From Vreelandella boliviensis LC1 (GTDB lineage Bacteria; Pseudomonadota; Gammaproteobacteria; Pseudomonadales; Halomonadaceae): DNA of 64,000 bases. The DNA lies in contig NZ_JH393258.1 in assembly GCF_000236035.1 (NCBI RefSeq), positions 711,065-775,064 of the forward strand. Direction: 5' to 3'. The notes beneath the pieces were generated by a model. The model saw only the letters and a list, made by a program, of their open reading frames with translations, ran no database searches and was not told the origin of the DNA. Position numbers and translations under genes: made by a program. Below, piece after piece: positions 43,553-58,559 of this stretch. Positions within the stretch are counted from its first letter, which is position 1. Each line of letters begins with the position of its first letter.

Positions 43553-44267
43553 GATTGAAAAGGTACATAAGTCGTTTAAAGACCTGGAAGTGATCAAGGG
43601 TGTCGACCTAACCGTCCAAAAGGGCGAAGTGGTTTCCATTGTGGGGGGCTCTGGCTCTGGGAAATCGACCCTGCTTATGTGCATCAACGGCCTGGAAAAT
43701 ATCCAGAGTGGATCGATTCGCGTTGATGGCACCGAGGTACATGCCAAGGGCACCGATATCAATAAGTTGCGCCAGAAAATAGGCATTGTTTTCCAGCAGT
43801 GGAATGCCTTTCCGCACCTGAATGTGCTGGAGAACGTGATGCTCGCACCGCGTAAAGTACTGGGCAAGAGCCGGGCTGAAGCTGAAGAGCTCGCCGTCAA
43901 GCAGCTCACCCATGTGGGTCTTGCGGATAAGCTCAAGGTATTTCCCGGCAAGCTCTCCGGTGGCCAGCAACAGCGCATGGCGATTGCCCGGGCGCTGGCC
44001 ATGTCGCCGGACTATATGCTCTTCGACGAAGCCACCTCGGCCCTCGACCCGCAGTTGGTAGGCGAGGTGCTCGATACCATGCGCCTACTGGCTGAAGACG
44101 GCATGACGATGATTCTGGTGACCCATGAGATCCCGTTTGCCCGGGACGTATCCGACCGCGTGGCCTTTTTCCGTGAAGGCTTAGTTCACGAGATTGGCCC
44201 TCCCGATCAGGTGATCGATAACCCACAGAAACCGGAAACCGCAGCCTTTTTAAAGTCGGTTGTCTAG
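43545..44267 (+). CDS. Amino acid ABC transporter ATPase
   Basis: A 240-residue ATPase starting at ATG 43545. Walker A GGSGSGKST, Q-loop FQQWNAFPHLNVLENV, signature LSGGQQQRMAIARAL, Walker B YMLFDEATSALDP and H-loop VTHEIPFARDVSD are all present and typical of polar amino acid importers (GlnQ/HisP). The open frame ten codons upstream lies inside the permease gene. It ends the operon that starts at 39553. Confidence 0.92.
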   Translation: MIEIEKVHKSFKDLEVIKGVDLTVQKGEVVSIVGGSGSGKSTLLMCINGLENIQSGSIRVDGTEVHAKGTDINKLRQKIGIVFQQWNAFPHLNVLENVMLAPRKVLGKSRAEAEELAVKQLTHVGLADKLKVFPGKLSGGQQQRMAIARALAMSPDYMLFDEATSALDPQLVGEVLDTMRLLAEDGMTMILVTHEIPFARDVSDRVAFFREGLVHEIGPPDQVIDNPQKPETAAFLKSVV

Positions 44268-44284
44268 TCTGCCGTTAACGCACT

Positions 44285-44320
44285 CACGACCTGCACAAAC
44301 CGCAGGTCGTGGCTGTCTTA
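44285..44320 (+). terminator. Terminator after the amino acid ABC operon
   Basis: CACGACCTGC and GCAGGTCGTG form a perfect 10-bp stem with a 7-nt loop, 18 nt after the ATPase stop, followed by the weakly T-rich GCTGTCTTA. Confidence 0.65.
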
Positions 44321-44356
44321 GGCGGATCAAAAGCCTTAGCCAGATCGAAAGTTTTA

Positions 44357-45050
44357 TCAACTATATTTGACGCTACTCATCACGCTGCGGGATTCACCGT
44401 AGTAGCACCAGTATTCATAGCTAGCCACGTATTCTTTATCGGTGAGGTTATTGACGTTGACCTGGGCCTGCCAGCCGTCGTAACGCCCACTGGGTACGAT
44501 TATTTTTTATCGTAACCCGGCTCGCTTACGGTTGCCAAACTGCAAATTAACCTCGCCTTGAGGCGTCCCGGTCGGACGCTTGCTCACCGCATTAATCAGC
44601 CCTTGGAGGCGTTTCACCGTAAAGGATAGAAGATGGACCATTAAAGATATCCATGCGCCCCAAGCCGAATGGCTCGGGTAGCTACTGATAAAACCCTTCG
44701 CGGTAAATACGTAAATCATCTTGATAAGTGGACAGATCAAAACCGCGCACTTTAAACCAATCGGTGTTGTTTTCGCTGCCGTAATGACCCGACAGCACAC
44801 CCGCGCGATAGCGGAACGTTTCATCCAACTGCTGAACGTTACGAGTTTCTAGCTCTTCTCGGTCAACGCTTGAGACTGGGCGTGGTGCCTCTACCCGCGG
44901 GGTATCGACTTTCAGCGGCGTGGTCGTGACCACCACGGTATCATTGGACGTAGACGTTTCTTAAACATAGGCAGATGCACAAAAGATCGCTGCGGTGATG
45001 GGAATCATTGAGCGCGACAAAGGACGACGAGCAAACGGCAGACGAGGCAT
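44357..45050 (-). pseudogene. Decayed TonB-dependent siderophore receptor
   Basis: Pieces of a ferrichrome/siderophore receptor remain in order on the minus strand. An export signal starts at ATG 45050 (MPRLPFARRPLSRSMIPITA) and hits an in-frame TAA at 44961-44963. Next comes the plug start (VVVTTTPLKVDTPRVEAP, then ELETRNVQQLDETFRYRAGV) to about 44682, where a stop is met. A shifted frame follows, with GLINAVSKRPTGTPQGEVNL. Finally a C-terminal scrap reads VNVNNLTDKEYVASYEYW and ends in KYS. Roughly 500 barrel residues have been deleted. At 694 bp against about 2.1 kb for an intact gene, with stop, frameshift and deletion, it is not functional. Confidence 0.88.
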
Positions 45051-45105
45051 GAGGTGGTCTCAATTGGATTTAAGAGCAAAGAGTAAGAATAAAAATAAGC
45101 ATCAT

Positions 45106-45124
45106 GATAATCGTTGCCATTAGC
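45106..45124. promoter_or_regulatory. Residual Fur-box-like site of the dead receptor gene
   Basis: GATAATCGTTGCCATTAGC agrees with the 19-bp Fur consensus at 13 positions and lies 56 nt upstream of the pseudogene's old start. Confidence 0.5.
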
Positions 45125-45614
45125 ACTAATGATGGCGCTTTTAAATAATTGTTTTCAATGGCCTAATGAGAGGACTTTCAACACTGCCTGACAGCGATAC
45201 CAACATGTATACCATGCATAATGCATCTCAACTGCCAACATGCTGGTGGTAGTTAAGACCTAAGAAGGGAGGCGCCGCGTTTCCTGCAGCGCAAAGTGCG
45301 ACATCCTGTTTAGGCATACCTGTTGCCTCACTTGTACGTACCCTAGACGGTATATAATCGTCTGACTGTGCGCTGGCGAACACTGGTGGAAAAACTCTAC
45401 AGTATCTATTCTTCTATTATACAACTCGGGGTTCCTTGGCCTGCGTTACCCCATTATGTTCGTTAGCGTACAGATTACGCCTTGAGATAGCCTATACTTG
45501 AAAGATATATCTCTAACGACTTGAGATACCAGTCAAAAGTACCAGAAGTCGGTACCTCACATAGGCGACTGTAGTCAAAATGCGCGACAGCCAGCAACAA
45601 GCGGGGAATATTCA
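45125..45614. other. Intergenic region before the first Crp/Fnr-like gene
   Basis: About 490 bp without a credible gene. I see no tRNA or hairpin terminator here. It should contain the promoter of the regulator at 45615. Confidence 0.4.
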
Positions 45615-46334
45615 ATGCCAGTGCCTTGTGATTTCCAGCAGAATGCCTTACTTGGCTTACTGCCTGCGGAGGAACTGAATCGTCTGCTGCCTGATTTAGA
45701 GAGGGTAACGCTGACATTGGGCCAATCGCTGTGTGAATCTGGACAGCATATGAAGCATGTCTACTTTCCACTGGATTCCATCATCTCGTTGCTGTGTGTG
45801 ATGGAAAATGGCGCCTCGACAGAAATTGCCGTTGTCGGCTATGAAGGATTGGTGGGAGTCTCGCTATTCATGGGCGGTGAGACTACGCCCAGCCGAGCGA
45901 TCGTTCAGAGTGCTGGCCAAGCGTTACGACTCAAGGGACAACTGCTCAAAAACGAATTCTACCGTGCCGGTCCAATGCAACGACTGCTCTTGCGCTATAC
46001 CCAAGCTCTGCTGACACAGATGGCGCAGACAGCGGTGTGCAATCGCCATCACAATGTCGATCAGCAGCTATGTCGTTGGTTGCTGCTTAGCATTGACAGG
46101 CTGCCGGGCAATGAACTGATCATGACCCAGGAATTAATAGCCAACATGCTGGGCGTGCGACGTGAAGGCGTGACCGAGTCTGCGGGTAAGCTCCAAAAGG
46201 CGGGCCTGATCTCCTACAATCGTGGGCATATCAAGATTATTGACCGCCCGGGACTGGAGGCGCGTGTCTGCGAGTGCTATACGGTGGTCAAGGAAGAGTA
46301 CGACCGTCTGCTCAATCACAACATCGTTATGTGA
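45615..46334 (+). CDS. Crp/Fnr-family transcriptional regulator, copy 1
   Basis: A 239-residue regulator: N-terminal cyclic-nucleotide-binding-type beta barrel (about 10-140; HVYFPLDSIISLLCVMENGASTEIAVVGYEGLVG) and a C-terminal winged helix (about 150-225; LIMTQELIANMLGVRREGVTESAGKLQKAGLISY). It lacks the N-terminal cysteine cluster of Fnr and the clear cAMP-binding pattern of Crp, so its signal is unknown. Followed by a paralogue at 46533. No dedicated target is evident. Confidence 0.87.
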   Translation: MPVPCDFQQNALLGLLPAEELNRLLPDLERVTLTLGQSLCESGQHMKHVYFPLDSIISLLCVMENGASTEIAVVGYEGLVGVSLFMGGETTPSRAIVQSAGQALRLKGQLLKNEFYRAGPMQRLLLRYTQALLTQMAQTAVCNRHHNVDQQLCRWLLLSIDRLPGNELIMTQELIANMLGVRREGVTESAGKLQKAGLISYNRGHIKIIDRPGLEARVCECYTVVKEEYDRLLNHNIVM

Positions 46335-46532
46335 GTGATCAAGTCATGCTAGCGACCTATTAAAAAAACAGACATCTTAGCGCTATGTACGCTAGCGTGC
46401 CGACGCTTTATTTACCCAGTGTTAATATGTAGATAGGTCATCAGCGTTCATGATGGCCGTTCTGCAGCCGACATCAAAATGATTTAAACCTTCATTGTGC
46501 CGTTTGCCAGGTTCTTTCAGCCGGAGAGGCAC

Positions 46533-47246
46533 ATGACGTCTTTTTTTCACGTCCTCAATGCCAATAGACTGCTTACTGAGCTACCGACCGTCGAGCGGGA
46601 TGGCTTTATGGCCGTTTGCGAAAACGTAGAGCTTTCATTTGGCGAAGTACTCTTCCAGCCTACCGAGACGATTACCCACGCCTATTTTCCTATTGATAGC
46701 TTCATTTCACTGATTGTTGTACTCGACTCTGATAACCGGCTAGAGGTCGCGATGGCAGGCCGTGAGGGCATGCTGGGCAGCTCCCTAGTGTTGGGCATCG
46801 AAGAAACGCCACTTCTTGCGCTGGTCCAAGGGGCGGGGTCGGCCCTTCGCATCACTGCTGAAAATTTTCAACAACTACTACTTTGCAGTCCTGTATTACA
46901 TCAGCGTCTAAAGCGATATATCTATGTAGTAATGAAGCAACTGGCAACTTCAGCGGCATGTAATCATTTCCATCGGATTGAAGGGCGCCTGGCAAGGTGG
47001 CTGCTGATGACTCAGGATCGGGCAGGGTCTGATCAATTGAATCTGACCCATGAATTTCTGGCCATGATGCTCGGGGTTAGACGTGCAGGAATTACGCTTG
47101 CGGCGATAGCCCTGCAGGCGCGCGGACTAATCCGTTACCAGCGTGGAACAATCACGGTGCTTGATCGGCTTGGCCTAATCGAGGCGTCCTGCGAGTGCTA
47201 TAACGAAGATTGCGCGCTATACGCCAAAATGTTGCCGGTGTTATAG
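46533..47246 (+). CDS. Crp/Fnr-family transcriptional regulator, copy 2
   Basis: A 237-residue protein of the same layout as its upstream neighbour, starting at ATG 46533 behind GGAGAGG; the open frame begins 12 codons earlier at a GTG (46497). Shared pattern: AYFPIDSFISLIVVLDSDNRLEVAMAGREGMLG in the sensor and LTHEFLAMMLGVRRAGITLAAIAL in the DNA-reading helix. The two are clear but diverged paralogues in tandem, separated by about 200 bp, so this copy may have its own promoter. It is the last host gene before the island. Confidence 0.87.
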   Translation: MTSFFHVLNANRLLTELPTVERDGFMAVCENVELSFGEVLFQPTETITHAYFPIDSFISLIVVLDSDNRLEVAMAGREGMLGSSLVLGIEETPLLALVQGAGSALRITAENFQQLLLCSPVLHQRLKRYIYVVMKQLATSAACNHFHRIEGRLARWLLMTQDRAGSDQLNLTHEFLAMMLGVRRAGITLAAIALQARGLIRYQRGTITVLDRLGLIEASCECYNEDCALYAKMLPVL

Positions 47247-47758
47247 AGGGGGATAACTTAGAGATAGCTCTGCTTTTTCCCAGGAGTTGAAGCTGAGCCC
47301 GACCATCCGTAGAAGTGCAAAGATTACATCGCTAATGGATTAGAACTTATTAGCGTCAGTTGTTAAGCGCAAACAAGATGGAAGAGGACACGGGGAAAGG
47401 AATCAAGCAGTTGATATACCGAAGTCCAAGGGACTCATAATCGCCTACTTTAAAAATAGATAAATATAGAAATGGTGGGCCCAGTAGGACTTGAACCTAC
47501 GACCAAGGGATTATGAGTTAGAATGTTAAGCTACAAGCCTAGGAAAATCAAGGATAGCCTACCGTAAGCTAGATCAGCCAAAAGTAATTGTGTGACAGTA
47601 GGTTAGCGTAACTTTGCGAAGGTGGCCAGAGCGGATAAGTGTACCGCTCATGTACCTGAGCGCTAGCAGAGCTGCCTTGCGTTCTCCAGGCATTTCCCTC
47701 CAGCCCAGATCCTTAGACAAGGTATCCACTCCATAGCTTTTGGGTTACGCTAGGTATC
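47247..47758. other. Junction region holding the left island boundary
   Basis: No gene is seen in these 512 bp. They contain the left attachment repeat (47471-47518). At 47430-47442 there is also an inverted 13-nt copy of the tRNA anticodon region (GGGACTCATAATC). Everything right of 47518 is island DNA and turns AT-rich. Confidence 0.6.
47471..47518. repeat. Left attachment site (attL-type) of the island
   Basis: A 48-bp stretch identical to 55960-56007. That right copy is the 3' part of the CAU tRNA gene from the anticodon loop through CCA plus two flanking bases. Identity stops sharply at both ends. The left copy lacks the 5' half of the tRNA and cannot be a functional tRNA. Confidence 0.93.
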
Positions 47759-47983
47759 ATGCACACTAGGCTGTCTGCGCTTAATGAGAGCTTATTAGAT
47801 GCCAAAAGAAAAAGGCGTTATGTCAGATATGCCAGGAAAGCAGACATATCCTGCGAGGCTCTATACCGCGCTTTGTCATCCAGTAGCTACCCGACGATTA
47901 AAACTTTAGTTCCTGTCATGAGTGTTATGGGCTTAGGCCTCTTTGTCACAAATATTAAGATTAGCGTCCAGGGCGATGACTAG
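47759..47983 (+). CDS. Small HTH protein heading the ABC-three-component operon
   Basis: A 74-residue protein, MHTRLSALNESLLDAKRKRR then a short helix-turn-helix-like core (YARKADISCEALYRALSSSSYPTIKTLVPVMSVMGLGL). The PTIKTLVPVMSVMGLGL end is like HigA/addiction-module antidote-type DNA-binding proteins. It lies 2 nt upstream of the nuclease gene and is certainly co-transcribed with it. It probably represses the operon or acts as an antitoxin-like control; that is inference. No strong ribosome site is visible. Confidence 0.7.
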   Translation: MHTRLSALNESLLDAKRKRRYVRYARKADISCEALYRALSSSSYPTIKTLVPVMSVMGLGLFVTNIKISVQGDD

Positions 47984-47985
47984 GT

Positions 47986-48945
47986 ATGAAATATGACTAT
48001 GAAGACATGAGTGATGAGCAGTTTGAGAAGCTAGTCACCTTTCTTTGCCAAGAAATTCTAGGGATCGCTACTCAGGGCTTTACAAAAGGGCCTGATGGGG
48101 GAAGGGATGCAAAGTTTGTTGGCACTGCTGATCTATACCCAAGTACAAGCAATCCTTGGAGTGGAATTACAGTCATCCAGGCAAAGCATACTAACGGATA
48201 TAACAAACACTTTTCCGAGCCTGATTTCTACAGCAAGAATGGTAGCTCAAGCGTACTGCATGAAGAAATAATAAGAATAAACAAGCTGCGCGCGATGAAC
48301 CAGATTGACCATTACATGTTATTTTCTAATAGGCGGCTTTCTGCAAACGCTGAGACCGAAATTCGTGCTTATCTTTCAAAGCAGTGTAACATCCCTGAGT
48401 CTTCCATTTGTCTATGTGGAATTGAACTGTTAGAAACATGGCTTAAAAGATTCCCTAAAGCAGCTGAGCTAGCTGATTTAGACAAGGTGGACTCTCCCCT
48501 TATTGTAAGCCCAGATGACCTATCTGATGTTGTATATGCACTGTCAGCACAGCTAGACTCAGGGCTAGAAATTGAGGATGACCCTCCTACACCACGTATA
48601 CCTTATCAAGAAAAAAACACGATCAACAATATGTCTAAAGAGTATGCGGATACTCTTCGGAAAAGATATTTAAAAGAGACGGCACAGATTCAGGCATTTT
48701 TATCATCTCCTGAAAATCTAGAACTTTTGCAGCTCTACGAAAATGTCGTCGATGAGTTTCAGTTGAAGATCATTGCAAAGAGAAAGGAGTATCAGAATTT
48801 TGATAGCGTAATGAACTATCTTTTTGACTTGCTCTTTGCACGCGACCCAGTCCTTAGGGGAAACAAGAAGCTGACAAAGGTAATGGTATTTTACATGTAC
48901 TGGAACTGCGATATTGGGAGCGAAGAACATGCTACGCCCAACTAA
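47986..48945 (+). CDS. Mrr-like nuclease component of an ABC-three-component system
   Basis: A 319-residue protein. The N-terminal 150 residues are an Mrr-type restriction endonuclease fold: FEKLVTFLCQEILG, then the active-site pattern GPDGGRD (35-41) and VIQAKHT (64-69, the Q-x-K variant of PD-(D/E)xK). The remaining half has no known motif by eye and is mostly helical (LRKRYLKETAQIQAFLSSPENLELLQLYENVVDEF); in ABC-3C systems such a C-terminal domain links the effector to the partner proteins. Its end overlaps the middle component by 17 nt. It should be the DNA-cutting effector. Confidence 0.82.
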   Translation: MKYDYEDMSDEQFEKLVTFLCQEILGIATQGFTKGPDGGRDAKFVGTADLYPSTSNPWSGITVIQAKHTNGYNKHFSEPDFYSKNGSSSVLHEEIIRINKLRAMNQIDHYMLFSNRRLSANAETEIRAYLSKQCNIPESSICLCGIELLETWLKRFPKAAELADLDKVDSPLIVSPDDLSDVVYALSAQLDSGLEIEDDPPTPRIPYQEKNTINNMSKEYADTLRKRYLKETAQIQAFLSSPENLELLQLYENVVDEFQLKIIAKRKEYQNFDSVMNYLFDLLFARDPVLRGNKKLTKVMVFYMYWNCDIGSEEHATPN

Positions 48946-49177
48946 GCACTCACATCCTGACCAAACAGTAATAAACGCTGCTCTTGTCATTTTGGTGCGG
49001 CTGAGAAAAGTTAGAATTGACAGCTACAGCGACCTTCTTTCATATGCAAAGAAAAGCATAAAAGGTGGTGAGTTTCTATTTCTCCCAGCATTGAATTTTT
49101 TATTTCTAACGGGAGTAGTAGAGTATCGAAAAAAAACAGACTCAATTGAGTTTATAGTCGACAATGATTCTATCTAA
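48929..49177 (+). CDS. Small middle component of the ABC-three-component system
   Basis: An 82-residue protein from ATG 48929 (a TTG at 48914 is also in frame). It reads as a small winged-helix-like domain (NAALVILVRLRKVRIDSYSDLLSYAKKS, FLFLPALNFLFLTGVVEYR) and sits between the nuclease and the ABC ATPase, overlapping both. Position, size and pattern fit the middle-component subunits of ABC-3C systems, thought to bridge effector and ATPase. The fold is my reading, not proved. Confidence 0.7.
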   Translation: MLRPTKHSHPDQTVINAALVILVRLRKVRIDSYSDLLSYAKKSIKGGEFLFLPALNFLFLTGVVEYRKKTDSIEFIVDNDSI

Positions 49178-50960
49178 ACTTTACACAGACAAAGGCTCAT
49201 TCTTTGAGCCCATATTTTTCAAAGATGGTCTCAACGTGATTTATGGTGAGATCCGTCTTCCAGAAAATAGAGATAAAGATACTCACAATCTTGGGAAGAG
49301 TACTTTAGGTAGAGTAATAGACTTTTCTCTTTTATCCAAGAAGGATCCAAGATCCTTCCTTTTCAAGCATGAGAAAATCTTTTCAGGCTTCACTTTTTTT
49401 ATAGAAATAAAACTTAAAAAAGGTAGCTACTTAACGGTAAAAAGAAGCGTAGCGCAAGCCTCAAAAGTTTCCTTTAAAAAGCATAACAATCACTACCAAG
49501 ACTTTTCTTTTCTTGGGGATGAAGGTTGGGATCATATCAATGTACCTTTTGATAGAGCCAAAGATCTTCTGGATAGCCTTTTAAATCTATCATATATAAA
49601 ACCATGGACTTTCAGGAATGCTCTTGGGTACCTCATACGCTCTCAAGATGATTATAACGACGTATTTAAGCTCAGAAAGTTTGGATCACGTGATGCTCAC
49701 TGGAAACCTTATCTAGCACATATACTTGGCTTCAATGCCGAATTAATATCTGAGCATTACAAAAAAGAAGAAGAACTAAGCAAAAAAGAAGTTGATGAGA
49801 GCACAATTCGAAAAGAGCTGGGGGGCTCAGTTGAAGATATAAGCAAAATAGAAGGTATTCTTCTTATCAAACAAAAAGACGCTGATAAAAAACAGAATCT
49901 TTTGGATGCCTTTGATTTTCGTGAGCAAGATAAAGAAACAACAAAAAATTTAGTCGACGGAATCGATGAGAGAATTGCTGAGCTAAACAAAAAGCGCTAC
50001 TCTCTAAAGCAAGAAAGAAAAAAAATACTCAAGTCGTTAGAAGAAGATAAAATCAACTTCCGCACTAGTGATGCAGAAAAAATATTCGAAGATGTAGGCA
50101 TTCTTTTCCCAAATCAGCTTAAGAAAGACTTTGATCAACTTATTTCTTTTAACAAAGCTATCACCGAAGAGCGAATTAGCTATCTATTAATTGAAAAAGA
50201 TGAATTAGAATCCGAAATCGTCCAAATAAATAGCGAGCTTAATCGTCTCGGACAGCAGAGATCAGAATCACTTTCCTTCTTAAGTGACACTGAGATTTTC
50301 AATAAATATAAAGCGTTATCAAACCAGCTGATCATACTCCGTACAGACATAGAGACATTGGAAAGACAAAAAAAACAGGTTCATCGACTTCAAGAGCTAA
50401 GAGGAGAGATCAGAAAACTCTCTGAGAAGTGTAGTCAGCTTCAATCTCAGATCGAAGAAAACACTGAAGAACAGAACTCTGACAAAGATAGTATTTTTTC
50501 TCAGATAAGGTTTCACTTCAGCGAAATCGTAGATGATGTCATAAACAGAAAAGCGCTCCTAAGTGCTTCACCTAACTCGAAAGGACACTTACAGTTTAAA
50601 GCAGAGATATTAGACGAATCAGGAAACGCAACAAGCGCTGACATGGGTCATACATATCGAAAGCTGTTATGTATCGCTTTCGATCTTGCTGTGCTAAGAG
50701 CCCATCTAAACGACACATTTCCTCGCTTTGTGTTTCATGATGGCATTTTCGAATCGCTCGACAGCAGGAAAAAGGAAAATCTATTATCTGTCGCCCGCCA
50801 GTATTCGGACATGGGTGTCCAGTCAATAATTACAGTCATTGACTCAGATTTACCTAAAAGAGAAGAAGAAGATCTCCCTGTTTTTGACGAATCAGAGATT
50901 ATTCTTCAACTTCATGATGAAAATGAAAGCGGACGGCTATTCAAAATGAAGGCTTGGTAA
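49164..50960 (+). CDS. DUF2326-like ABC/SMC-type ATPase of the three-component system
   Basis: A 598-residue SMC-like ATPase. The P-loop is unusual: after GLNVIYGE comes an inserted loop (IRLPENRDKDTH) before NLGKSTLGR (42-50), which is the DUF2326 pattern. A long charged coiled coil follows (about 190-430, EE/KK-rich). The C-terminal half closes the ATPase with DMGHTYRKLLCIAFDLAVL and a Walker B of the form FVFHDGIFESLD near 522-533. It overlaps the middle component by 14 nt. It is the presumed sensor or motor that licenses the nuclease when it meets foreign nucleic acid. Confidence 0.85.
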   Translation: MILSKLYTDKGSFFEPIFFKDGLNVIYGEIRLPENRDKDTHNLGKSTLGRVIDFSLLSKKDPRSFLFKHEKIFSGFTFFIEIKLKKGSYLTVKRSVAQASKVSFKKHNNHYQDFSFLGDEGWDHINVPFDRAKDLLDSLLNLSYIKPWTFRNALGYLIRSQDDYNDVFKLRKFGSRDAHWKPYLAHILGFNAELISEHYKKEEELSKKEVDESTIRKELGGSVEDISKIEGILLIKQKDADKKQNLLDAFDFREQDKETTKNLVDGIDERIAELNKKRYSLKQERKKILKSLEEDKINFRTSDAEKIFEDVGILFPNQLKKDFDQLISFNKAITEERISYLLIEKDELESEIVQINSELNRLGQQRSESLSFLSDTEIFNKYKALSNQLIILRTDIETLERQKKQVHRLQELRGEIRKLSEKCSQLQSQIEENTEEQNSDKDSIFSQIRFHFSEIVDDVINRKALLSASPNSKGHLQFKAEILDESGNATSADMGHTYRKLLCIAFDLAVLRAHLNDTFPRFVFHDGIFESLDSRKKENLLSVARQYSDMGVQSIITVIDSDLPKREEEDLPVFDESEIILQLHDENESGRLFKMKAW

Positions 50961-51208
50961 TAGCAATAACCTCCCAAAAACTATCATAGAAACTTGGGCT
51001 AAACGGTAGAGGTGAGGTGTCTGGCAACGACTCCCTCTCCACTCTATCGTTTAAATGCAATGAGAATCTTAGTTGCGCGTCAGTAAATCACCATCATGTC
51101 TATTACACTTCTGCTGCTCCGCTATACAAATCACTAAAAGCAATACTATCTATTTTTTTCTTTTGGTTAGCAGAACTCGTCGAGCCCATCAGGGCGAGTA
51201 AGTTACAG

Positions 51209-51260
51209 GTAATTGCTAGACCGGCGCTTGCGGCGGTATAGCAATTACACATCCTGCCCG
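51209..51260 (+). other. oriT: Candidate IncP-type (MOBP) origin of transfer
   Basis: GTAATTGCTAGACC (51209-51222) and GGTATAGCAATTAC (51235-51248) are inverted repeats matching at 13 of 14 positions around a 12-nt loop. Exactly 8 nt after the right arm lies ACATCCTG followed by CCCG. RP4 oriT has the same plan: an imperfect inverted repeat, right arm ending 8 nt before the nick, and the nick inside TATCCTG/CCCGG. The predicted nick is between 51256 and 51257. A TraK-like gene lies downstream on the same side as in RP4. RP4 comparison is from memory. Confidence 0.75.
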
Positions 51261-51278
51261 CTTCAGCTACTGCACAAT

Positions 51279-51408
51279 AAGGACACTATAACCGCACAAT
51301 CAGTGTATGAAGGACACTATGTATGTATTATTGTCTTTGTGTCGCTGATTACACAGATTGTGCGGAAAATTATTCATTTAGTGTCCTTAAATATTCAAAT
51401 AGTGTCCT
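51279..51408. repeat. Interlaced direct and inverted repeats beside oriT
   Basis: AAGGACACTAT occurs at 51279-51289 and 51310-51320, and in inverse at 51379-51388 (TAGTGTCCTT) and 51399-51408 (ATAGTGTCCT). Inside lies a second inverted repeat, CCGCACAATCAGTGTA (51292-51307) against TACACAGATTGTGCGG (51350-51365), matching at 15 of 16. The whole block can fold into one large cruciform or serve as a multi-site binding array. Confidence 0.85.
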
Positions 51409-51568
51409 AAAATATTTAAAATATGTCTTTAATGTGTATTCCAAAGGCTTAATTACGCTAGATTTCTTTTGCAATATAATACCGGTTGACAGAATATAAA
51501 ATGCAATCAAAAATAATACTCTATAGATAACCTTACCACCTCAAAAAGATATCAAAGGCATATATTTT

Positions 51569-51796
51569 ATGAATTACTCAGAATTGATTGAAGGCTTAAA
51601 AAGAGAGGATGAAGAAAAAGCTAAGACCTATGGAAGGTATGCTTTTCTCAAATTTCGCGATGAAATAAAAGAAGCTCTTGATAATGGGTACTCAGCCATA
51701 GCCATATGGGAGCATTTATCTGAAAGCGGTGATATGCCGGTAAAATACAACCAATTCACCGTATACATAAGAAAATTTATTACGAAAAAATTATAA
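51569..51796 (+). CDS. TraK-like relaxosome accessory protein, short form
   Basis: A 75-residue protein with FRDEIKEALDNGYSAIAIWE (34-53) and then a MPVKYNQFTVYIRKFI tail, the pattern of the N-terminal half of IncP TraK (DV-x-AAL-x-x-GY-x-x-x-x-IW-x-x-x ... Y-x-x-F-x-x-x-V-x-R). TraK binds bent DNA next to the nick and helps the relaxosome. RP4 TraK is about 130 residues; this lacks the Pro/Lys-rich C-terminal tail, as do other island-borne versions. Together with the oriT candidate 300 bp upstream it argues for a mobilisation function. No relaxase is nearby. Confidence 0.68.
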   Translation: MNYSELIEGLKREDEEKAKTYGRYAFLKFRDEIKEALDNGYSAIAIWEHLSESGDMPVKYNQFTVYIRKFITKKL

Positions 51797-52121
51797 GTGT
51801 TAAAGTAACGAACACTAAAACTAATAATAGTAGCCAGCATGAGATAGCAGACAGCTCATTAGATATGACATCATCATTAAAAATGATAAACGCCAAAAAT
51901 AATGAGATCATTCTGATCCAAATAAGATGACATTCAGCACTCATCATTAACTGAATAACTAGATTTAGTTATCGAATTGGGCCGTGTTTACGTTCGTATC
52001 GCCACTTTAAAAAAAGCCCCGTGCCAATAGGTACGCCAAGCACAGCAATAAGAATTGCGAATTCAACATAATAGTTCAATTTGCCGCCCCCTATTCTCTG
52101 AACGATGTCTTATCAGAATGC
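51797..52121. other. Spacer between TraK-like gene and the IS-split HTH gene
   Basis: AT-rich, about 325 bp. It holds only a possible small minus-strand gene (51969-52079). Confidence 0.4.
51969..52079 (-). CDS. Possible 36-residue single-span membrane protein
   Basis: From TTG 52079, behind AGGGGG at good spacing, the frame gives LNYYVEFAILIAVLGVPIGT, then GLFLKWRYERKHGPIR and a stop: one hydrophobic segment and a basic tail. Such small membrane proteins are common in islands. The opposing plus-strand frame is also open here, so this is uncertain. Confidence 0.35.
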   Translation of the reverse strand: MNYYVEFAILIAVLGVPIGTGLFLKWRYERKHGPIR

Positions 52122-52235
52122 ATGTACGGGAATTATTGTAGCACTTTCATGCGTAATATCTTTTGGGCTTGCTTGATAGATAACCAAAATGGTCACCAGG
52201 AAAAGGTGGTTACAGCTCTGTGCAGCACCCGACGT
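52122..52235 (+). pseudogene. 5' fragment of an HTH gene split by IS3
   Basis: If the IS and one copy of the 4-bp target duplication are removed, this stretch joins in frame to 53432-53731 across ...ACC CGA CGT / CGT CGC CAT.... The frame is open well upstream, with possible ATG starts at 52122 and 52149; neither has a convincing ribosome site. The reconstructed protein would be about 128-137 residues. Confidence 0.35.
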
Positions 52236-52296
52236 CACCCCCTGATTGAGTAGCGCTACACTTTAGAGTCCGATCCTATGGGTAAGGAGATTGGAC

Positions 52297-52560
52297 ATGA
52301 AGAAGCGTTTCAGCGAAGAACAGATCATTGGTTTCCTGGGCGAAGCAGAAGCAGGACTCCCCATCAAGGAGCTATGCCGTCGGCACGGCTTCTCAGAAGC
52401 CAGTTACTATCTATGGCGCAGCAAGTTTGGCGGTATGAGCGTGCCCGATGCCAAGCGACTCAAAGAACTTGAAGCCGAAAATGGACGCCTGAAAAAGCTG
52501 CTCGCGGAGTCGCTACTGGAAATGGAGGTCACTCGCGAGGCACTGAGAAAAAAGTGGTGA
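52297..52560 (+). CDS. IS3-family transposase OrfA
   Basis: An 87-residue protein, MKKRFSEEQIIGFLGEAEAG, with the HTH core IKELCRRHGFSEASYYLWRSKFGG and a leucine-zipper-like helix (LKELEAENGRLKKLLAESLL). It binds the IS ends. Its last codons run through GAGAAAAAAGTGGTGA, where an A6G slippery run would allow -1 frameshifting into OrfB to make the full transposase. Confidence 0.92.
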   Translation: MKKRFSEEQIIGFLGEAEAGLPIKELCRRHGFSEASYYLWRSKFGGMSVPDAKRLKELEAENGRLKKLLAESLLEMEVTREALRKKW

Positions 52561-53417
52561 GCGCCCCTGCACGCCGAGAGGTGGTGCACTTTATGGTGTC
52601 ACGTGGCCTGAGTGAGCGCCGGGCGCTCCGTGTCGTCCGCATGAGTGCCAGTGCATTGCGCTATCAAGCGGCCCCAGACCGCAATGAAGCATTGCATGAA
52701 CGCATTGTGGCCTTGGCATATCGGCATCGTCGCTACGGCGCTGGCATGATCTACCTGAAGCTGCGCCAAGCCGGTGAACAGGTCAATCATAAGCGCGTCG
52801 AGCGTCTCTATGCCGCGGCTCGGTTGCAGGTGAAGCGACGCAAGCGTAAGAAGGTTCCCACGTCTGAACGAAAGCCCCTTGGCCGACCTTGTGCCGCCAA
52901 CCAAGTCTGGTCGATGGATTTTGTTTTTGACCGTACGGCGGAAGGTCGCGTGATCAAGAACCTCACCGTTGTCGATGACGCCACCCATGAAGCCGTGGCT
53001 ATCGTACCTGAACGCGCCATTGGTGGGCTGTCGTTAACACGGATACTGGATCATCTAGCTGTACACCGTGGGCTCCCTAACGCCATTCGTATAGATAATG
53101 GCAAGGAATTCTGTGGGCGGGCCATGGTGGCGTGGGCTTATCTACGTGGCATTGCCCTGTTTTTAATCGAACCTGGAAAACCCAATCAAAACGCCTATAT
53201 CGAATCGTTTAACGGGCGCTTTCGAGATGAATGCCTGAACGAGCACTGGTTCACCAGCCTGCATCACGCCAGAGTTGTCATCGAGGCATGGCGACGGGAA
53301 TACAACGAGGAACGACCTAAGAAGGGACTGGGAGGATTAACGCCTTCCGCCTATGCCGAGCAACTGGCGTTAAAAAACGATAAAGTAACTTCAGACTCTA
53401 AACCCGGGTGCTACTGA
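52554..53417 (+). CDS. IS3-family transposase OrfB (DDE integrase domain)
   Basis: A 287-residue protein. The HTH_21-type RRYGAGMIYLKLRQAG segment is followed by the retroviral integrase-like core with Asp122 (VWSMDFVFD), Asp181 (AIRIDNGKEF) and Glu217 (AYIESFNGRFRDECLNEHWF), a DD(35)E triad. The protein ends with GLTPSAYAEQL. It overlaps OrfA in the -1 frame and is normally made as a fusion. All catalytic residues are intact, so the element may still be active. Confidence 0.93.
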   Translation: MVSAPARREVVHFMVSRGLSERRALRVVRMSASALRYQAAPDRNEALHERIVALAYRHRRYGAGMIYLKLRQAGEQVNHKRVERLYAAARLQVKRRKRKKVPTSERKPLGRPCAANQVWSMDFVFDRTAEGRVIKNLTVVDDATHEAVAIVPERAIGGLSLTRILDHLAVHRGLPNAIRIDNGKEFCGRAMVAWAYLRGIALFLIEPGKPNQNAYIESFNGRFRDECLNEHWFTSLHHARVVIEAWRREYNEERPKKGLGGLTPSAYAEQLALKNDKVTSDSKPGCY

Positions 53418-53431
53418 GGATGGGGTGACGT

Positions 53432-53731
53432 CGTCGCCATCGAAAAAATTTTGAACAATGGTTAGAAACTTTAGGCGCAAAAAAAGAGTTTCCTCCTTTT
53501 TCAGAACCGACTGATCAAATACCTATTAGGAGAAAAGCTTATGATTTTTCACATGCTAAGCTTTCAGAAAGGAGAATAAAAATTCTAAAATTGTATGCAG
53601 CGGGATCAACCCAAGCTGAAATAGCAAGGCAGCTTGGAGTTTCAAGGCAAGCAGTCTCAAAGTCACTTTTCAAGTTAAGGGGATATTTTAATACTTGGGG
53701 AGAAATTTCACTTAAGAGTCTGATAAAATAA
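53432..53731 (+). pseudogene. 3' fragment of an HTH gene split by IS3
   Basis: One hundred codons open from the IS boundary, ending in TAA at 53729-53731. The translation has FEQWLETLGAKKEFPPFSEP and a clear helix-turn-helix (LKLYAAGSTQAEIARQLGVS then RQAVSKSLFKLRGYF), like the C-terminal reading head of sigma-factor region 4 or KorA-type regulators. The start has been lost to the IS, so it is truncated. It may have been an island regulator or transfer-region repressor; that is a guess. Confidence 0.65.
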
Positions 53732-53794
53732 GACAAACAAAAAAGCATCATAAATATCATATTTCTAAGCATTCAGAATGCTCTCCACTTATTC

Positions 53795-54124
53795 TTAGAT
53801 GGGATCCTGGTTGCCAAGCCGTCTCCAAAAACCATTTACAAAATCTCTATCTTTAGCTTTCATTGAGTGAAGAGATACATTTCCTTCTCGACAATTAACA
53901 AAAGAACAATCTTCTTTTCGCTCAGCCAAAATAAAGCCTTGAGTTGAAAACTCCGTTAAAACAGCGAGGGTCTTACTGGATCTTTTCATTGCAAAAATTT
54001 CCAAGTGACCCCGAACAAAATGCTTAAGAGCTTCAGCGGAAAAATGTCTATAAGTTTCGAAGCTAGTTTGTAAAATCGGCATAGCGTCAGGATTTAAAAT
54101 ATCCGTTAAATTTAAAGCAACCAT
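53795..54124 (-). pseudogene. C-terminal part of a frameshifted nuclease-like gene
   Basis: The frame (109 residues from an internal ATG at 54124, open further upstream) is the continuation of the gene at 54174-54770. Just beyond that gene's stop the other frame reads EANKQLESSFLIDKNHLSRG and runs straight into this segment. One extra base in the four-A run (TTTT at 54185-54188 on the plus strand) accounts for the break. The segment ends SMKAKDRDFVNGFWRRLG. No separate ribosome site is evident, so I do not read it as an independent gene. Confidence 0.7.
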
Positions 54125-54173
54125 ACCTCTTGAAAGATGATTCTTGTCAATTAAAAAGCTACTTTCAAGCTGT

Positions 54174-54770
54174 TTATTTGCCTCTTTTCTCTAGCTGACG
54201 CTGTGATTTTATCCTTTTGCATTCTACGTAAAGCGTCCTTCCATTTACTTGTGCGACCAAATCAGCTATATTATTTAGCTCAACGTAATATCCCGCCTTA
54301 ATAAATCTTGTTGCAACACCTAGCTCAAATGCAAAGTCTCTTGACTGATCTTTTTTGCTCCCAGTGCGAAACTTTTGACCCGAAACAGCCTTTTTTATTG
54401 AATCGAGATCGATCAACTCTTTATGCTTATCAAAAACATTTTTTATTCTTATTAATTCATTTGCTTCTAAATGTGCATTAAAAAAAACCCTTAAACTTTC
54501 TTTAGCTTCCACCTTTCCTTTCTTATTCAAAAATTCTACAAAATCTCTTTCATAGTCTCCAAATCGAGTTTTTTGATAATCTATACCGTATGAACTTATC
54601 CATTCGCATGCGAACTGGTACTCTTCTTTTAACTTTTCAGCATCAAAAATAAATTTATCATAACCTGGGTCTATATATTTCACGCTTAACTCCACAAGCC
54701 TTAAATTAGGTCTCTTTACCTTTCCAAATATGATAAAGAATGCACTTTCTTTATTAGAAAAGAAAAGCAT
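54174..54770 (-). pseudogene. N-terminal part of a frameshifted PD-(D/E)XK nuclease-like gene
   Basis: A 198-residue frame ending early. It shows a helical N-terminal region (LKEEYQFACEWISSYGIDYQ) and, near the end, a PD-(D/E)XK-like nuclease core: ELGVATRFIKAGYYVELNN, then IADLVAQVNGRTLYVECKR with Asp and E-x-K correctly spaced. The active site is therefore complete, but the reading frame breaks 10 residues later. The restored protein would be about 324 residues. It follows the integrase gene by 29 nt on the same strand and could be expressed with it. Family not recognised beyond the nuclease motif. Confidence 0.72.
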
Positions 54771-54799
54771 CTGACTTTATTACTCGAATGGTATAAAAA

Positions 54800-55864
54800 C
54801 TATTTATAAGTTTTTAAGTTATCTAGTTTATTTACCAAATCCTCAGCCCGCAGATGCGTGTACCGCCTTAACATCTGCATCGATTTATGACCACTTATCG
54901 CCGCAACCTCCTGATCGGATAGACCTGCCTCTACTAATCGGCTGACTGCCTCATGTCTTAAATCATGGAAGCGAAAATCATCGAGCTCTGCCTTCTTCTT
55001 GGCCTGATTCCAAATTTTCGTATAGACATAAGGGCCCCGCTTGCCTTCTTTGCCTGGCTCACCGAAAAACACCAGGTTGCAGTCAAGTGGGCACACTGGG
55101 TTGTTCAGGGCCTGCTTGAACGTTTCTGTCGCGGCTTGAGTTAGCGGCACAAGGCGGGCTTCGTTGTTTTTGGTGTCTGTAAGGCGCACCAGTCGGCGTT
55201 TAACGTCTACCTGGCTGCGAGTGAGGGTTAGGATCTCCGACGAGCGCATACCCGTCTCTAGAGCGATTCTGGCGATCCATGCAAGCATAGGGTTACTGTG
55301 CTGGCGTAACACGGCGAACAGCCGCTTCTCTTCCTGGGAATCAAGACGTCTACTCCGGCCCTCACCTGGGCTAGGTTTGCGGATATTCTGAACAGGGTTA
55401 TACGTCAGGCCCAGCCCCCACTCTTGAATCGACACTGTAAACAGGTGGCCAAGCAGGGCAAGCTCTAGACGCACGGTATTGGGGCTGATTAGCTCACCTC
55501 GGCGTCCCAAACTGTTTAAGCGCTTATCACGGTAGTTGGCGACTAGTTCTGGCGTAAGGGCTGCTAGAGAGTATTTACCCAAATGTTCGATCAGCGTATT
55601 GGCCTTGAGGCGTTCGCTTTTCTGGCTGCTGGGTTTCTTGGTAGGGGTAATGTCGGCTAAGTAGCGCTTTAGCGCTGCTTCAAGCGTCATTCTTTCTGAG
55701 GCACTACGCTGGATATAAAGGCCGCGCACCATTTCATCTTCAGTGCGGCGTGCCCAATCTTGGGCGTCACGTTTGGTTCGGAAGGTCTTTGCGATGGTTG
55801 GCCAACCCGACTTGCGGATGACGGCTTTCCAGGTTGCAGAAGGGGTCTTGACGATGGTGGCCAC
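54800..55864 (-). CDS. int: Tyrosine recombinase integrase of the island
   Basis: A 354-residue phage-type integrase. An N-terminal arm-binding domain (WKAVIRKSGWPTIAKTFRTK) and a SAM-like core-binding domain lead to the catalytic domain with Arg207 (ETGMRSSE), His300-x-x-Arg303 (FHDLRHEA), His326 (ISGHKS) and nucleophile Tyr335 (RRYTHL). The full R-H-R-H-Y set is present, so it should be active. It starts about 95 bp from the right attachment site and points away from the tRNA, the usual layout. It should integrate and excise the island at the tRNA 3' end. Confidence 0.95.
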   Translation of the reverse strand: MATIVKTPSATWKAVIRKSGWPTIAKTFRTKRDAQDWARRTEDEMVRGLYIQRSASERMTLEAALKRYLADITPTKKPSSQKSERLKANTLIEHLGKYSLAALTPELVANYRDKRLNSLGRRGELISPNTVRLELALLGHLFTVSIQEWGLGLTYNPVQNIRKPSPGEGRSRRLDSQEEKRLFAVLRQHSNPMLAWIARIALETGMRSSEILTLTRSQVDVKRRLVRLTDTKNNEARLVPLTQAATETFKQALNNPVCPLDCNLVFFGEPGKEGKRGPYVYTKIWNQAKKKAELDDFRFHDLRHEAVSRLVEAGLSDQEVAAISGHKSMQMLRRYTHLRAEDLVNKLDNLKTYK

Positions 55865-55959
55865 AAAAAATCTCCAGGGTCTGAAAGATCGGCGCTGTAC
55901 CGAAACTGTACCCTTGGACTAGGGGACTCACCAGAGACAATTGCTAAGTTACTGATTTT

Positions 55960-56038
<79 letters not shown>

Positions 56039-56165
56039 GAAAAGTGTGCATATCATAGCGAATGTGACCGAGTGAGGCTAGCCCCATTGCGCTATCTTGA
56101 TGTCATTACGGCACTTTATGTGGATTGGGCAGTCTGGTGAGTAGTTCTTTATGCGGAGACGCGCT

Positions 56166-56741
56166 GTGAAAGCATTGATTGCTCTATTCCCCTTATTGTT
56201 GGCGATGCCCGTGCACGCTGACTGGCAACTTGATCCTGGCCAGTCGCGGGTGCAGGCGTCGATTACCCAGCTCAACGGCGAGGCGCCGCAAACCCATCAC
56301 CATCAGGTGCGCGATCTGCAGGGCGATATCTCCAGCGATGGCACTCTTCGCTTGCCGTTAAAGCTCAGCCAAACGGATGTACTTGAACGCTTTGGCGAGC
56401 TGCCGCCGTGGATAGGCTTGTTGGCGAACACCACCTTGGTGACGCTCGAGGCGCAAATGCCGCCAGAGAGATTGGATGGCTTGGATATTGGTGAGTCGTT
56501 AGTGGAGACGCTGACCTTTAGCGTTCAGTCAAACATGGTTAACCAACAGGAATCCGTACCACTGCGGTTTACCCGCGAAGGCTTGAATGAGATACGCGTT
56601 ACCCACGCCGAGCCTATGGCGATGGACGGCAGAGCGCTGATGGCAAACAGCACGGTGCGAACCGTGCTGTCCATGCTGGGCTATCAAGAGATTGACGAGC
56701 ATGTGCCCGTCACCCTCAATGCGCTGCTAGTTAACCGTTAA
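56166..56741 (+). CDS. YceI-like exported protein
   Basis: A 191-residue protein from GTG 56166, preferred because GGAG lies 8-9 nt upstream and the export signal then begins cleanly (KALIALFPLLLAMPVHA, cut before DWQLD); ATG 56151 would add five basic residues. The mature part has DWQLDPGQSRVQASITQLNG, RLPLKLSQTDVLER and VTLEAQMPPERLDGL, with the look of the YceI lipocalin-like beta barrel that binds isoprenoids in the periplasm. The match is moderate. Convergent with the ABC exporter, 3 nt apart. Confidence 0.72.
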   Translation: MKALIALFPLLLAMPVHADWQLDPGQSRVQASITQLNGEAPQTHHHQVRDLQGDISSDGTLRLPLKLSQTDVLERFGELPPWIGLLANTTLVTLEAQMPPERLDGLDIGESLVETLTFSVQSNMVNQQESVPLRFTREGLNEIRVTHAEPMAMDGRALMANSTVRTVLSMLGYQEIDEHVPVTLNALLVNR

Positions 56742-56744
56742 AGG

Positions 56745-58559
56745 TTAGCTACTGAGTACTTCTACATCCCCCGCCTGGGCTTCGCCGGTTTGAACCCTCC
56801 ACTGGGCGGCGTAGTGGCCATTAGCAGCTAACAGGCTTGAGTGGGAACCCCGCTCGGCCACTTGGCCTTTCTCAATCACCACGATTTCATCGGCGTGAAC
56901 AATAGTGGAAAGGCGGTGGGCAATCATAATCACCGTGCGGCCATGGGCAATGTGCTTAAGCGAGCGCTGAATGGCCGCTTCGGTTTCGTTATCCACTGCG
57001 CTGGTGGCCTCATCCAGCACAAGAATCGGAGGGTCTTTAAGTAGCGCCCTGGCTAATGAAAGCCGCTGGCGCTGGCCGCCGGAAAGCCGCACGCCCCGCT
57101 CCCCTACCGGCGTATCCAACCCTTGGGGCAGCGTTTCGATAAAGCTCCACGCCTCGGCTGTTTTTGCTGCGTCTGTAATCGCGGCTTCATCGGCGTCGGG
57201 TTTGCCGTAGGCAATATTGTCGCGAATGCTGCCTTCAAACAGGTAAACATCCTGGCTGACCAAGCCAATTGACTGGCGTAGCGAGTTCATGCTGACGTCG
57301 GTAATCGGCTGGTCGTCAATTAGAATGCGTCCGTTTTCAGGGTCGTAAAAGCGCAGCAGCAGTTTGATCAGGGTTGATTTACCCGACCCAGTCGCCCCGA
57401 CCAGCGCCAGGGTGCTGCCTGCGGGCGCGTTTAGCTGAATGCCTTCCACACCAACGCCGCTGGTAGCGTAGTGAAAGCTCACATTGTCGATGGTCACTTC
57501 GCCACGCACCGGCTGAGCGAGCGGTGTGGTGCTGTCGTCTTTGACGGTAATCGGCACTTCCAGTAGATCGAGAATGCGCCGCGTGCTGGCCATGGCACGC
57601 TCAAACAGGTCGATCACCTGAGCCAAGCCAGTGAGCGGCCAGAGAAGCCGCTGAGTCAGGAATACCAGCACGCCGTAAGCGCCCACATTTAGCGAGCCAT
57701 TGAGCGCCATCATGCCGCCGACGGTAAAGGTGGCAAGAAAGCCTGCCAAAATCGCCATGCGGATCACCGGAATAAACGCAGAGCTGACCTTGATCGCCTT
57801 TCTGTTGGCTTCTACGTAGGCTTCGCTGGCATCGCGCAGGCGTTCGGCTTCGCGCTCTTCACTGGTAAAGCTTTTAATCGTCGCAATACCGCTGAGGTTG
57901 TTGGATAACCGGCTGGCCAAATCACCGACTTTTTCACGCACATCGCTATACAGCGGCCCGGCTTTACGCTGGAAGAAGAACGCGCCCCAAATGATCAGCG
58001 GGATAGGCGTAAACGCCAGCAAAGCAATTAGCGGCGAAAGCACAAAGAACACCGCGCCAACCGCCACCACGGTGACGACCACCTGAATAATCGAATTAGC
58101 CCCGCCGTCTAGAAAGCGCTCGAGCTGATTGACGTCGTCGTTCATGGTGGCCACAAGCTGGCCGGAGCTTTTCGATTCAAAGAACGCCATATCCAGCCGC
58201 TGGGCGTGCTCATAGGTATCCTGGCGCATATCCGCTTGTAAACGTTGAGCTAAATTACGCCAAAGAATTTGAAACAGGTACTCAAACAGCGACTCCCCCG
58301 CCCAGATAAAGAACGTCAGCACCGCCAGCATGGTGATCTGCTGTTGAGGCGTCTCAAACCCCAGGCTGGCCACAAAGCTCTGCTCTTGGTTGACCACCAC
58401 ATCGATGGCGACACCAATCAAAATCTCTGGAGCAATATCAAACAGCTTGTTGATAATCGAGCAGGCGGTGGCGGCAATGATGCGCCGCCGGTAGCCTTTG
58501 GCGTAGCGCAGTAGCCGCACCAGAGCTTGAAAACTGTGTGCAGGAGAGGACACAAGCAT
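56745..58559 (-). CDS. ABC exporter, fused membrane and ATPase domains
   Basis: A 604-residue half-transporter. Six membrane segments span about 20-310. The ATPase has Walker A VGATGSGKST, Q-loop GLVSQDVYLFEGSIRDNIAYG, signature RLSGGQRQRLSLARALLKDP, Walker B ILVLDEATSAVDNETE and H-loop IAHRLSTI. The type resembles MsbA and the YbtP/YbtQ siderophore-cluster exporters. It lies 27 nt behind the siderophore ATPase gene on the same strand and so is probably the last gene of that Fur-regulated operon, suggesting a role in siderophore handling. Confidence 0.88.
   Translation of the reverse strand: MLVSSPAHSFQALVRLLRYAKGYRRRIIAATACSIINKLFDIAPEILIGVAIDVVVNQEQSFVASLGFETPQQQITMLAVLTFFIWAGESLFEYLFQILWRNLAQRLQADMRQDTYEHAQRLDMAFFESKSSGQLVATMNDDVNQLERFLDGGANSIIQVVVTVVAVGAVFFVLSPLIALLAFTPIPLIIWGAFFFQRKAGPLYSDVREKVGDLASRLSNNLSGIATIKSFTSEEREAERLRDASEAYVEANRKAIKVSSAFIPVIRMAILAGFLATFTVGGMMALNGSLNVGAYGVLVFLTQRLLWPLTGLAQVIDLFERAMASTRRILDLLEVPITVKDDSTTPLAQPVRGEVTIDNVSFHYATSGVGVEGIQLNAPAGSTLALVGATGSGKSTLIKLLLRFYDPENGRILIDDQPITDVSMNSLRQSIGLVSQDVYLFEGSIRDNIAYGKPDADEAAITDAAKTAEAWSFIETLPQGLDTPVGERGVRLSGGQRQRLSLARALLKDPPILVLDEATSAVDNETEAAIQRSLKHIAHGRTVIMIAHRLSTIVHADEIVVIEKGQVAERGSHSSLLAANGHYAAQWRVQTGEAQAGDVEVLSS

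Follow-up and report, generated by a model that had tools for sequence, protein, structure and literature searches.

A probable IncP-family origin of transfer in a relaxase-less, defence-carrying tRNA-Met island of Vreelandella boliviensis allied to GIsul2

The stretch of DNA analysed here (64,000 nucleotides of Vreelandella boliviensis LC1, hereafter the window) contains an island at coordinates 47471-56007 with perfect 48-bp att repeats at both ends. The left repeat (47471-47518) is identical to the right one (55960-56007), which lies within the 3′ part of the attachment gene, a reverse-strand tRNA-Met (CAT; 55962-56038). A 16-nt inverted att-like fragment (47427-47442) sits just left of the left repeat and matches 55998-56013 at 94%; of two relatives searched, neither gave a clean empty site. 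The island carries an ABC-3C-type operon, a putative origin of transfer (oriT), a traK-like gene, an IS3 copy, two ORFs, and a reverse-strand gene for a tyrosine integrase of a tRNA-Met island family (54800-55864; PF00589, 8.4e-33). The operon consists of three forward-strand genes: an ABC-3C-type gene with an Mrr-like nuclease domain and CTD12 (47986-48945; PF20279, 5.8e-63; PF04471, 0.0015, below cut-off), the middle component MC8 (48914-49177; PF20295, 1e-22), and an ABC-3C-type ATPase (49164-50960; DUF2326, PF10088, 5e-31; PADLOC PDC-M68B and LmuB-like, 2.2e-57 and 8.7e-18), and it is predicted to be an anti-phage defence system. Both ORFs are on the reverse strand, one of 109 aa (53795-54124) that matches no family and one of 198 aa (54174-54770) with a weak nuclease-like match (Hjc, 0.019, below cut-off). 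In the genome (4.2 Mb, 21 contigs), neither VirB4 (PF03135) nor PF03432, the one relaxase profile used, found a match, in keeping with the original prediction of an island with an integrase and no relaxase. With its integrase and att repeats, and an oriT present without relaxase or MPF as judged by these two profiles, the island fits the term iOriT, as used in passages of PMC11389934.

The putative oriT (51170-51265, forward strand) is composed of an outer frame, an inverted repeat, and a nic region. The arms of the repeat are 19 nt each (left, 51209-51227; right, 51230-51248), are separated by the loop TT, and are complementary at 17/19 positions, with two pairs that do not match; within the outer 14 nt 13 match, and the 13/14 repeat of the original prediction is present and extends further than had been claimed. 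The right arm, a predicted TraJ/NikA site, is followed by the spacer ACATCCTG (51249-51256) and, also as claimed, ends exactly 8 nt 5′ of the predicted nick (51256/51257, positioned by reference to RP4) in the nic region ATCCTG/CCCG (51251-51260). This is the IncP-type (MOBP) geometry, as the RP4 oriT is described in passages of PMC7314908 as having a 19-bp repeat 8 bp from nic that is bound by TraJ, and the likeness in layout to the RP4/R751 nick region holds. ATCCTG occurs 29 times on the two strands of the window, and the oriT site has a repeat score of 13 with the runner-up at 4; among the 5386 ATCCTG sites in 200 dinucleotide shuffles none reached a score of 10, the highest being 8. As single-stranded DNA the hairpin has a predicted energy of -17.7 kcal/mol vs a shuffled mean of -7.1 (z -5.7).

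A profile of nine IncP oriTs (plasmids L013-L018, the same-genus contigs L009 and L012, and GIsul2), built without the window and without any tRNA-Met island oriT, finds 51170-51265 at E=3.6e-7, with the next match at 1.2, and the comparison with known MOBP oriTs that had been proposed as a check thus turned out positive. The match spans the outer frame, the repeat, and the nic region, and the outer frame GAGCCCATCAGGGCGAGTAAGTT is the counterpart of GAGCACCGCAGGTGCGAATAAGG in RP4-type sites. By blastn the window oriT matches the sites in Halomonas icarae and Bisbaumannia pacifica at 87%, L027 at 86%, and L033 at 77%. The repeat arms GTAATTGCTA..TAGCAATTAC differ from those of RP4/R751 and from the GTGAAG..CTTCAC of most IncP-type plasmids read, such that the family layout of the predicted RP4-like oriT stands but the arms are not RP4-like; the nearest arm sequences come from four relatives (H. 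icarae, B. pacifica, Marinobacter excellens, and G206), from IncI plasmids, from the Thiothrix plasmid pTunz1, and from a conjugative contig of Kiloniellaceae. Among the matches that blastn of the arms listed, pTunz1 and the IncI plasmids came nearest, and scanning the species-genome collection with a pattern found the Kiloniellaceae contig, M. excellens HL-55, H. icarae, and B. pacifica.

Homologous sites with paired arm changes are present in B. pacifica, H. icarae, M. excellens, and G206, whose genomes have no match to PF03432, and the original view that this is an independently kept site and not a plasmid fragment agrees with this. Pairs were counted in seven oriTs of equal geometry (set A2), six of the 13 aligned (A1) having been left out for their other geometry in the MAFFT alignment, and L033 is outside the set. 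In A2 91% of cells are paired, and changes on both sides occur at four pairs (6/39, 10/35, 11/34, and 20/25). The covariation score is 0.261 vs 0.156 in shuffles (reached in 0/500) and at most 0.087 with the partners slid, a comparison in which kinship among sequences can outscore shuffles even without structure. Two weaker measures are not decisive, as 41/500 shuffles equal the count of both-side changes and 184/500 the number of pair types. The arms are under constraint as seen in the paired changes and the covariation.

The traK-like gene (51569-51796, forward strand; 75 aa) matches DUF5338 (PF17273, 5.9e-17), a family that also includes annotated plasmid TraK proteins, and it lies on the leading side of the oriT, where a TraK-like gene had been reported. 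PF17273 is found in only 5 of the 275 family genomes, so that TraK is rare in the family, and a search for the same oriT-traK arrangement found it again in H. icarae, B. pacifica, and M. excellens. The window and H. icarae TraK proteins share 75% aa identity, and over 67 codons there are 58 nucleotide differences (14/9/35 by codon position), with dN about 0.2 and dS either 1.3 (YN00) or saturated (NG86); the gene is under purifying selection between islands. Between nic and traK is a candidate TraK-binding region (51279-51408), in which AGGACACT occurs four times, twice on each strand, alongside a 16-nt inverted repeat (51292-51307/51350-51365). Among 11 nic-traK regions, 8-mers repeated at least three times are present in the window, L012, and L017, and weakly in L009. 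A general repeat code for TraK is unsupported, because no such 8-mers were found in the other seven regions (L010, L063, L013, L014, L016, L018, and L033).

The integrase is present at E<=1e-100 in 55 of the 275 family genomes, and neighbourhoods were read in 44 of these (40 fetched, plus G259, G065, G003, and the window) and in M. excellens; several of these 45 loci are cut by contig ends, and the other 11 genomes were left out for contig ends or partial genes. Twelve of the 45 loci have a MOBP relaxase, NikA-, TrbJ-, and TrbL-like genes, and an RP4-type oriT with arms AGTGAAG..CTTCAC, unlike those of the window; these oriTs were missed by the ungapped repeat scan, and seven were read upstream of nikA and all 12 by core string plus profile. 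A further nine loci (the window, L011, L063, L093, L095, L115, L117, L126, and L130) have an oriT without a relaxase, and PF03432 has no match in their genomes, with a relaxase-island control genome positive. There is no oriT match at 24/45 loci. The oriT profile positive at 21/45 loci contains its own targets, with only L095 outside the model, and is thus descriptive.

Fuller relatives show what such an island can contain. The B. pacifica island (L011) combines an integrase and RepA with a small HTH gene at the position of AlpA, a RepC-position gene, TrbL, a TrbK-like ORF, TrbJ, TraK, and the oriT. In H. icarae (L010) the oriT is on a separate 16.6-kb contig, apart from the integrase contig; one end of this contig is att-like, and it encodes an intact NikA (PF21983, 4.8e-19). 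Among L010, L011, and L063, TrbJ and TrbL are above the NCBIfam cut-offs in H. icarae (TrbJ_Ti, 3e-42; TrbL_P, 1.4e-55) with TrbK below, TrbJ is also found in L063, and TrbK is assigned by position; RepA is present in L011, L062, and L063, and no family scores over the cut-off for the genes in the AlpA and RepC positions of L011. The H. icarae TrbJ (L010:13457-15919) scores best with the Ti-plasmid TrbJ family and not the IncP-1 type, which would suit a non-classical helper. Seven of ten proteins from related oriT-bearing DNA match PADLOC defence models at E<=1e-10, all with predicted roles. Four are in H. icarae (PDC-S28, LmuB, HamA/LmuA, and, more weakly, PDC-S41/AbiO), and the others are methyltransferases of type II in B. 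pacifica and of type III in M. excellens and a type IIG match in G206. In G206 the window arm type occurs with no TraK match in the genome, and its same-genus island (L093:12229) has the type IIG match together with a toxin-antitoxin-like pair. The B. pacifica island has at its far end a broken second integrase (L011:3978-4646; 66-67% to that of the window) and an att copy (4735-4781), which suggests stacked islands. In the relative G238 a perfect att scar of 52 bp lies close to the left-flank gene (L160:2931-2982), so that other islands have probably used the same site.

At least four arm types are present among these islands, and all keep an imperfect paired repeat: the RP4-like arms with their own relaxase; TAGCAAWTAC, which occurs with TraK and in some cases with NikA and TrbJ/TrbL; GTAAACG..CGTTTAC; and GCATTG..CAATGC. 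The third type is found in three islands beside the integrase (L063, L095, and L117), about 140-150 bp past its stop codon, and the fourth in L115, L126, and L130, of which two (L115 and L130) have NikA and none has a PF03432 match in its genome. L063 (5853-5941, forward; 11733-11852, reverse) and L117 have two oriTs each, and beside the second oriT of L117 (G134; oriented 4578-4706) there is a TraK-like stretch of 44 aa at 68%, negative for PF17273 and probably a broken gene. We propose tentatively, at somewhat less than even odds, that in this family the IncP oriT is a fixed socket with exchangeable arms, in which the frame and nic are constant and the arm type would set the usable helper. 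If so, relaxase-less, defence-carrying satellites of P-type conjugation would form a wide-ranging parallel to SGI1 beyond the context of resistance.

Between traK and the integrase gene the window island has a 1204-bp IS3-family insertion sequence (52230-53433, forward strand) that abuts the last third of an HTH regulator (53435-53713, forward strand), truncated to its C-terminal end and whole in B. pacifica (tblastn, aa 197-289 of 301, 61%). The window copy has no target duplication; another copy in the genome (C3) has GAGT/GAGT. No matches to rep- or trb-like genes, including trbJ, trbK, and trbL, were found in 44001-58000. Searches for an xis-like protein were negative for both the island and the genome, the whole-genome search having been run without a positive control. 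The simplest reading of the junction is an IS-associated deletion, which probably removed the TrbJ, TrbL, TrbK-like ORF, RepA, and AlpA- and RepC-position genes of the fuller relatives. The island looks trimmed by the insertion sequence, its present mobility is therefore doubtful, and the lack of an xis-like protein together with the missing target duplication means that the window copy may be stranded; its own excision may be weak or need an excisionase in trans.

As to the helper, none is known in the V. boliviensis genome itself. The candidate, the Kiloniellaceae contig (137.7 kb), encodes TraK, NikA, a TraI-type relaxase, TraG, ParB-type and ArdC-type proteins, and VirB4, VirB6, VirB8, VirB9, and VirB11-type proteins; one VirB5 candidate falls below cut-off. 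Over CGGCGGTATAGCAAATACACATCCTG the contig and H. icarae agree in right arm and nic, and the window differs there by one base; the left arm of the contig has diverged and pairs poorly with its own right arm (ungapped score 0). Among four TrbL/VirB6 proteins compared with H. icarae TrbL, the Kiloniellaceae VirB6 is the best (161 bits vs 122, 121, and 111), and the H. icarae NikA is 38% identical to the candidate helper's and not especially similar. We also count against this candidate that its host, going by the title, is presumably alphaproteobacterial. NikA and arm similarity show a correlation that we regard as equivocal (Mantel r 0.58, 0/9999 permutations, n=14/16), as the test is inflated by kinship and the pair of most concern, L010/L033, is not among the most similar; the comparison took in the final 14 nt of each arm, L108 and L122 were left out as near-duplicates of L098, and the L017 arm was padded by one letter.

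Searches of 72,556 plasmid records for oriT similarity gave mainly IncI-type plasmids and pTunz1 among the matches listed. The pTunz1 oriT (Thiothrix unzii; L006:16253-16319) has the island-type right arm TATAGCAAATACACATCTTG, and this plasmid is typed as non-mobilizable and has no relaxase annotation. E. coli genomes gave 433 places, 431 of them on plasmids, and phage records gave two weak matches (E 0.8). The species-genome scan gave 24 loci, four with the island-type right arm (L027, L033, L035, and L037), 11 IncI-like (L021, L022, L024, L028, L029, L032, L034, L036, and L041-L043), and nine without the repeat; IMG/VR gave three, one IncI-like and two without the repeat.

We conclude, with a probability of roughly 0.8, that 51170-51265 is an IncP (MOBP)-family oriT in a relaxase-less integrative mobilizable element with an ABC-3C-type predicted defence operon, and to judge from its sequence this element is very probably allied to GIsul2, because the related DNA of H. 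icarae, B. pacifica, and M. excellens has retained, next to TrbJ and TrbL genes, both TraK and an oriT whose arms show paired changes, and the RepA of B. pacifica is 86% identical to that of GIsul2. Lacking an enzyme of its own to work the site, the island could probably spread only by riding the conjugation machinery of another element, as GIsul2 is thought to do. From these features we infer excision, TraK binding, nicking, transfer, and the kind of helper as follows. The integrase would excise 47471-56007 from the tRNA-Met gene, and the island's TraK would bind the leading side of the oriT; an incoming helper would contribute a protein of TraJ/NikA type that fits the arms, together with a MOBP relaxase to make the nick at 51256/51257, and its coupling protein and type IV channel would export the strand. 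The original proposal of a parasite of IncP-type (MOBP) conjugation survives in that a relaxase-less island with an IncP-family oriT would presumably depend on a helper, but a classical IncP plasmid is doubtful in that role and may not be the helper, since the arms differ from those of RP4, whose TraJ acts through the repeat.

A chance resemblance, or a hairpin that serves as a terminator or regulator site, is very improbable; the core ATCCTGYCCG is on its own unremarkable (one in the window, 0.27 expected), but the shuffle test, the match of a profile lacking the window's group, and the conserved traK neighbour all speak for an oriT. The oriT could be a relic, a real IncP-family site in an island unable to excise after the IS3 event removed the excisionase, regulator, rep, and trb genes and left oriT and TraK as leftovers; this agrees with our main reading on the origin of the site and not on its present function. 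The IS3 copy without target duplication next to the truncated regulator fits it, as do the failed searches for xis-like, trbJ, trbK, trbL, and rep genes, but the integrase, traK, the arms, and both att repeats are intact, and TraK has been under purifying selection between islands, although part of that may predate the IS event. On balance we consider the relic possible but somewhat improbable.

A functional oriT might instead be served by a classical IncP plasmid or by the MOBP relaxase of the sister tRNA-Met islands, which also encode NikA, TrbJ, and TrbL. The 12 relaxase-bearing loci have their oriT next to NikA and share the att site, the outer frame, and nic with the window island, but their RP4-type arms are unlike those of the window and RP4 TraJ acts through the arms (passages of PMC7314908), which makes this alternative unlikely. 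The reading that we prefer, a GIsul2-allied element moved by a helper with matching arms, gives a testable route between cells to one of the tRNA islands in which defence genes are often found, and it offers a prediction of the helper through the match of the right oriT arm to the helper's NikA/TraJ.

Several known systems resemble the island in part. It shares with RP4/R751 the outer frame, the 19-bp repeat, the 8-nt spacing, ATCCTG/CCCG, and traK on the leading side (for the layout, passages of PMC7314908) but differs in arm and loop sequence and in having neither traJ nor traI. The IncI (R64-type) oriT of p85 (L008) and of a Salmonella plasmid (L007) has similar arms (AATTG..CAATTACACATCCTG) and gives blastn matches, but differs in the upstream sequence and in TCCCG after nic, and no TraK is annotated beside it in L008. 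The integrated Burkholderia glumae IncP island has an IncP-derived mob region with TraK, and IncP helpers have been proposed for it (passages of section 3.3 of PMC5704250), but it encodes a MobP relaxase and TraJ, neither of which is found in the window island; the 12 relaxase-bearing sister islands resemble this type. SGI1 and the SXT-type MGIs are relaxase-less and helper-moved like the window island but have F-type helpers and other oriT families (passages of PMC5704250). Relaxase-less IMEs as a class are treated in passages of section 3.2 of the same review (Guedon et al. 2017).

The closest comparison is with GIsul2, described by Nigro and Hall and by Harmer et al. (as cited in passages of PMC5704250 and PMC9376610), which has been proposed to use MobP helpers and reshape their channel (Guedon et al., passages of PMC5704250). 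In pAB3 its order is int-alpA-repA-repC-trbJ-trbK-trbL, and we find an IncP-type oriT between repC and trbJ, with arms AGTGAAGATAG..CTAACTTCACCCATCCTGCCCG (pAB3 85142-85197; L136:35142-35197, reverse strand); its position is not given in the passages of PMC5704250 on GIsul2, and the word oriT does not occur in the main text of the GIsul2-integrase paper (PMC9376610); we claim no priority for this site. Over 264 aa the RepA proteins of GIsul2 and B. pacifica share 86% identity, and the TrbL of GIsul2 is about 32-33% identical to that of H. icarae; blastp gave no match between the TrbJ proteins of GIsul2 and H. icarae or between the AlpA- and RepC-position genes of L011 and those of GIsul2, and tblastn none to TraK in GIsul2. 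The two elements differ in their integrases (unrelated; 26% over 185 of 400 aa), targets (guaA vs tRNA-Met), oriT arms, and cargo (sul2 vs defence), and TraK is present only in the window island. By its gene content the window island is not a full GIsul2-type member, because the trb genes (no matches to TrbJ, TrbK, or TrbL) and the AlpA, RepA, and RepC block are absent. Like GIsul2 it is integrative, lacks a relaxase, and has an IncP-type oriT, which we locate in GIsul2 itself, and we join the island to the GIsul2 group.
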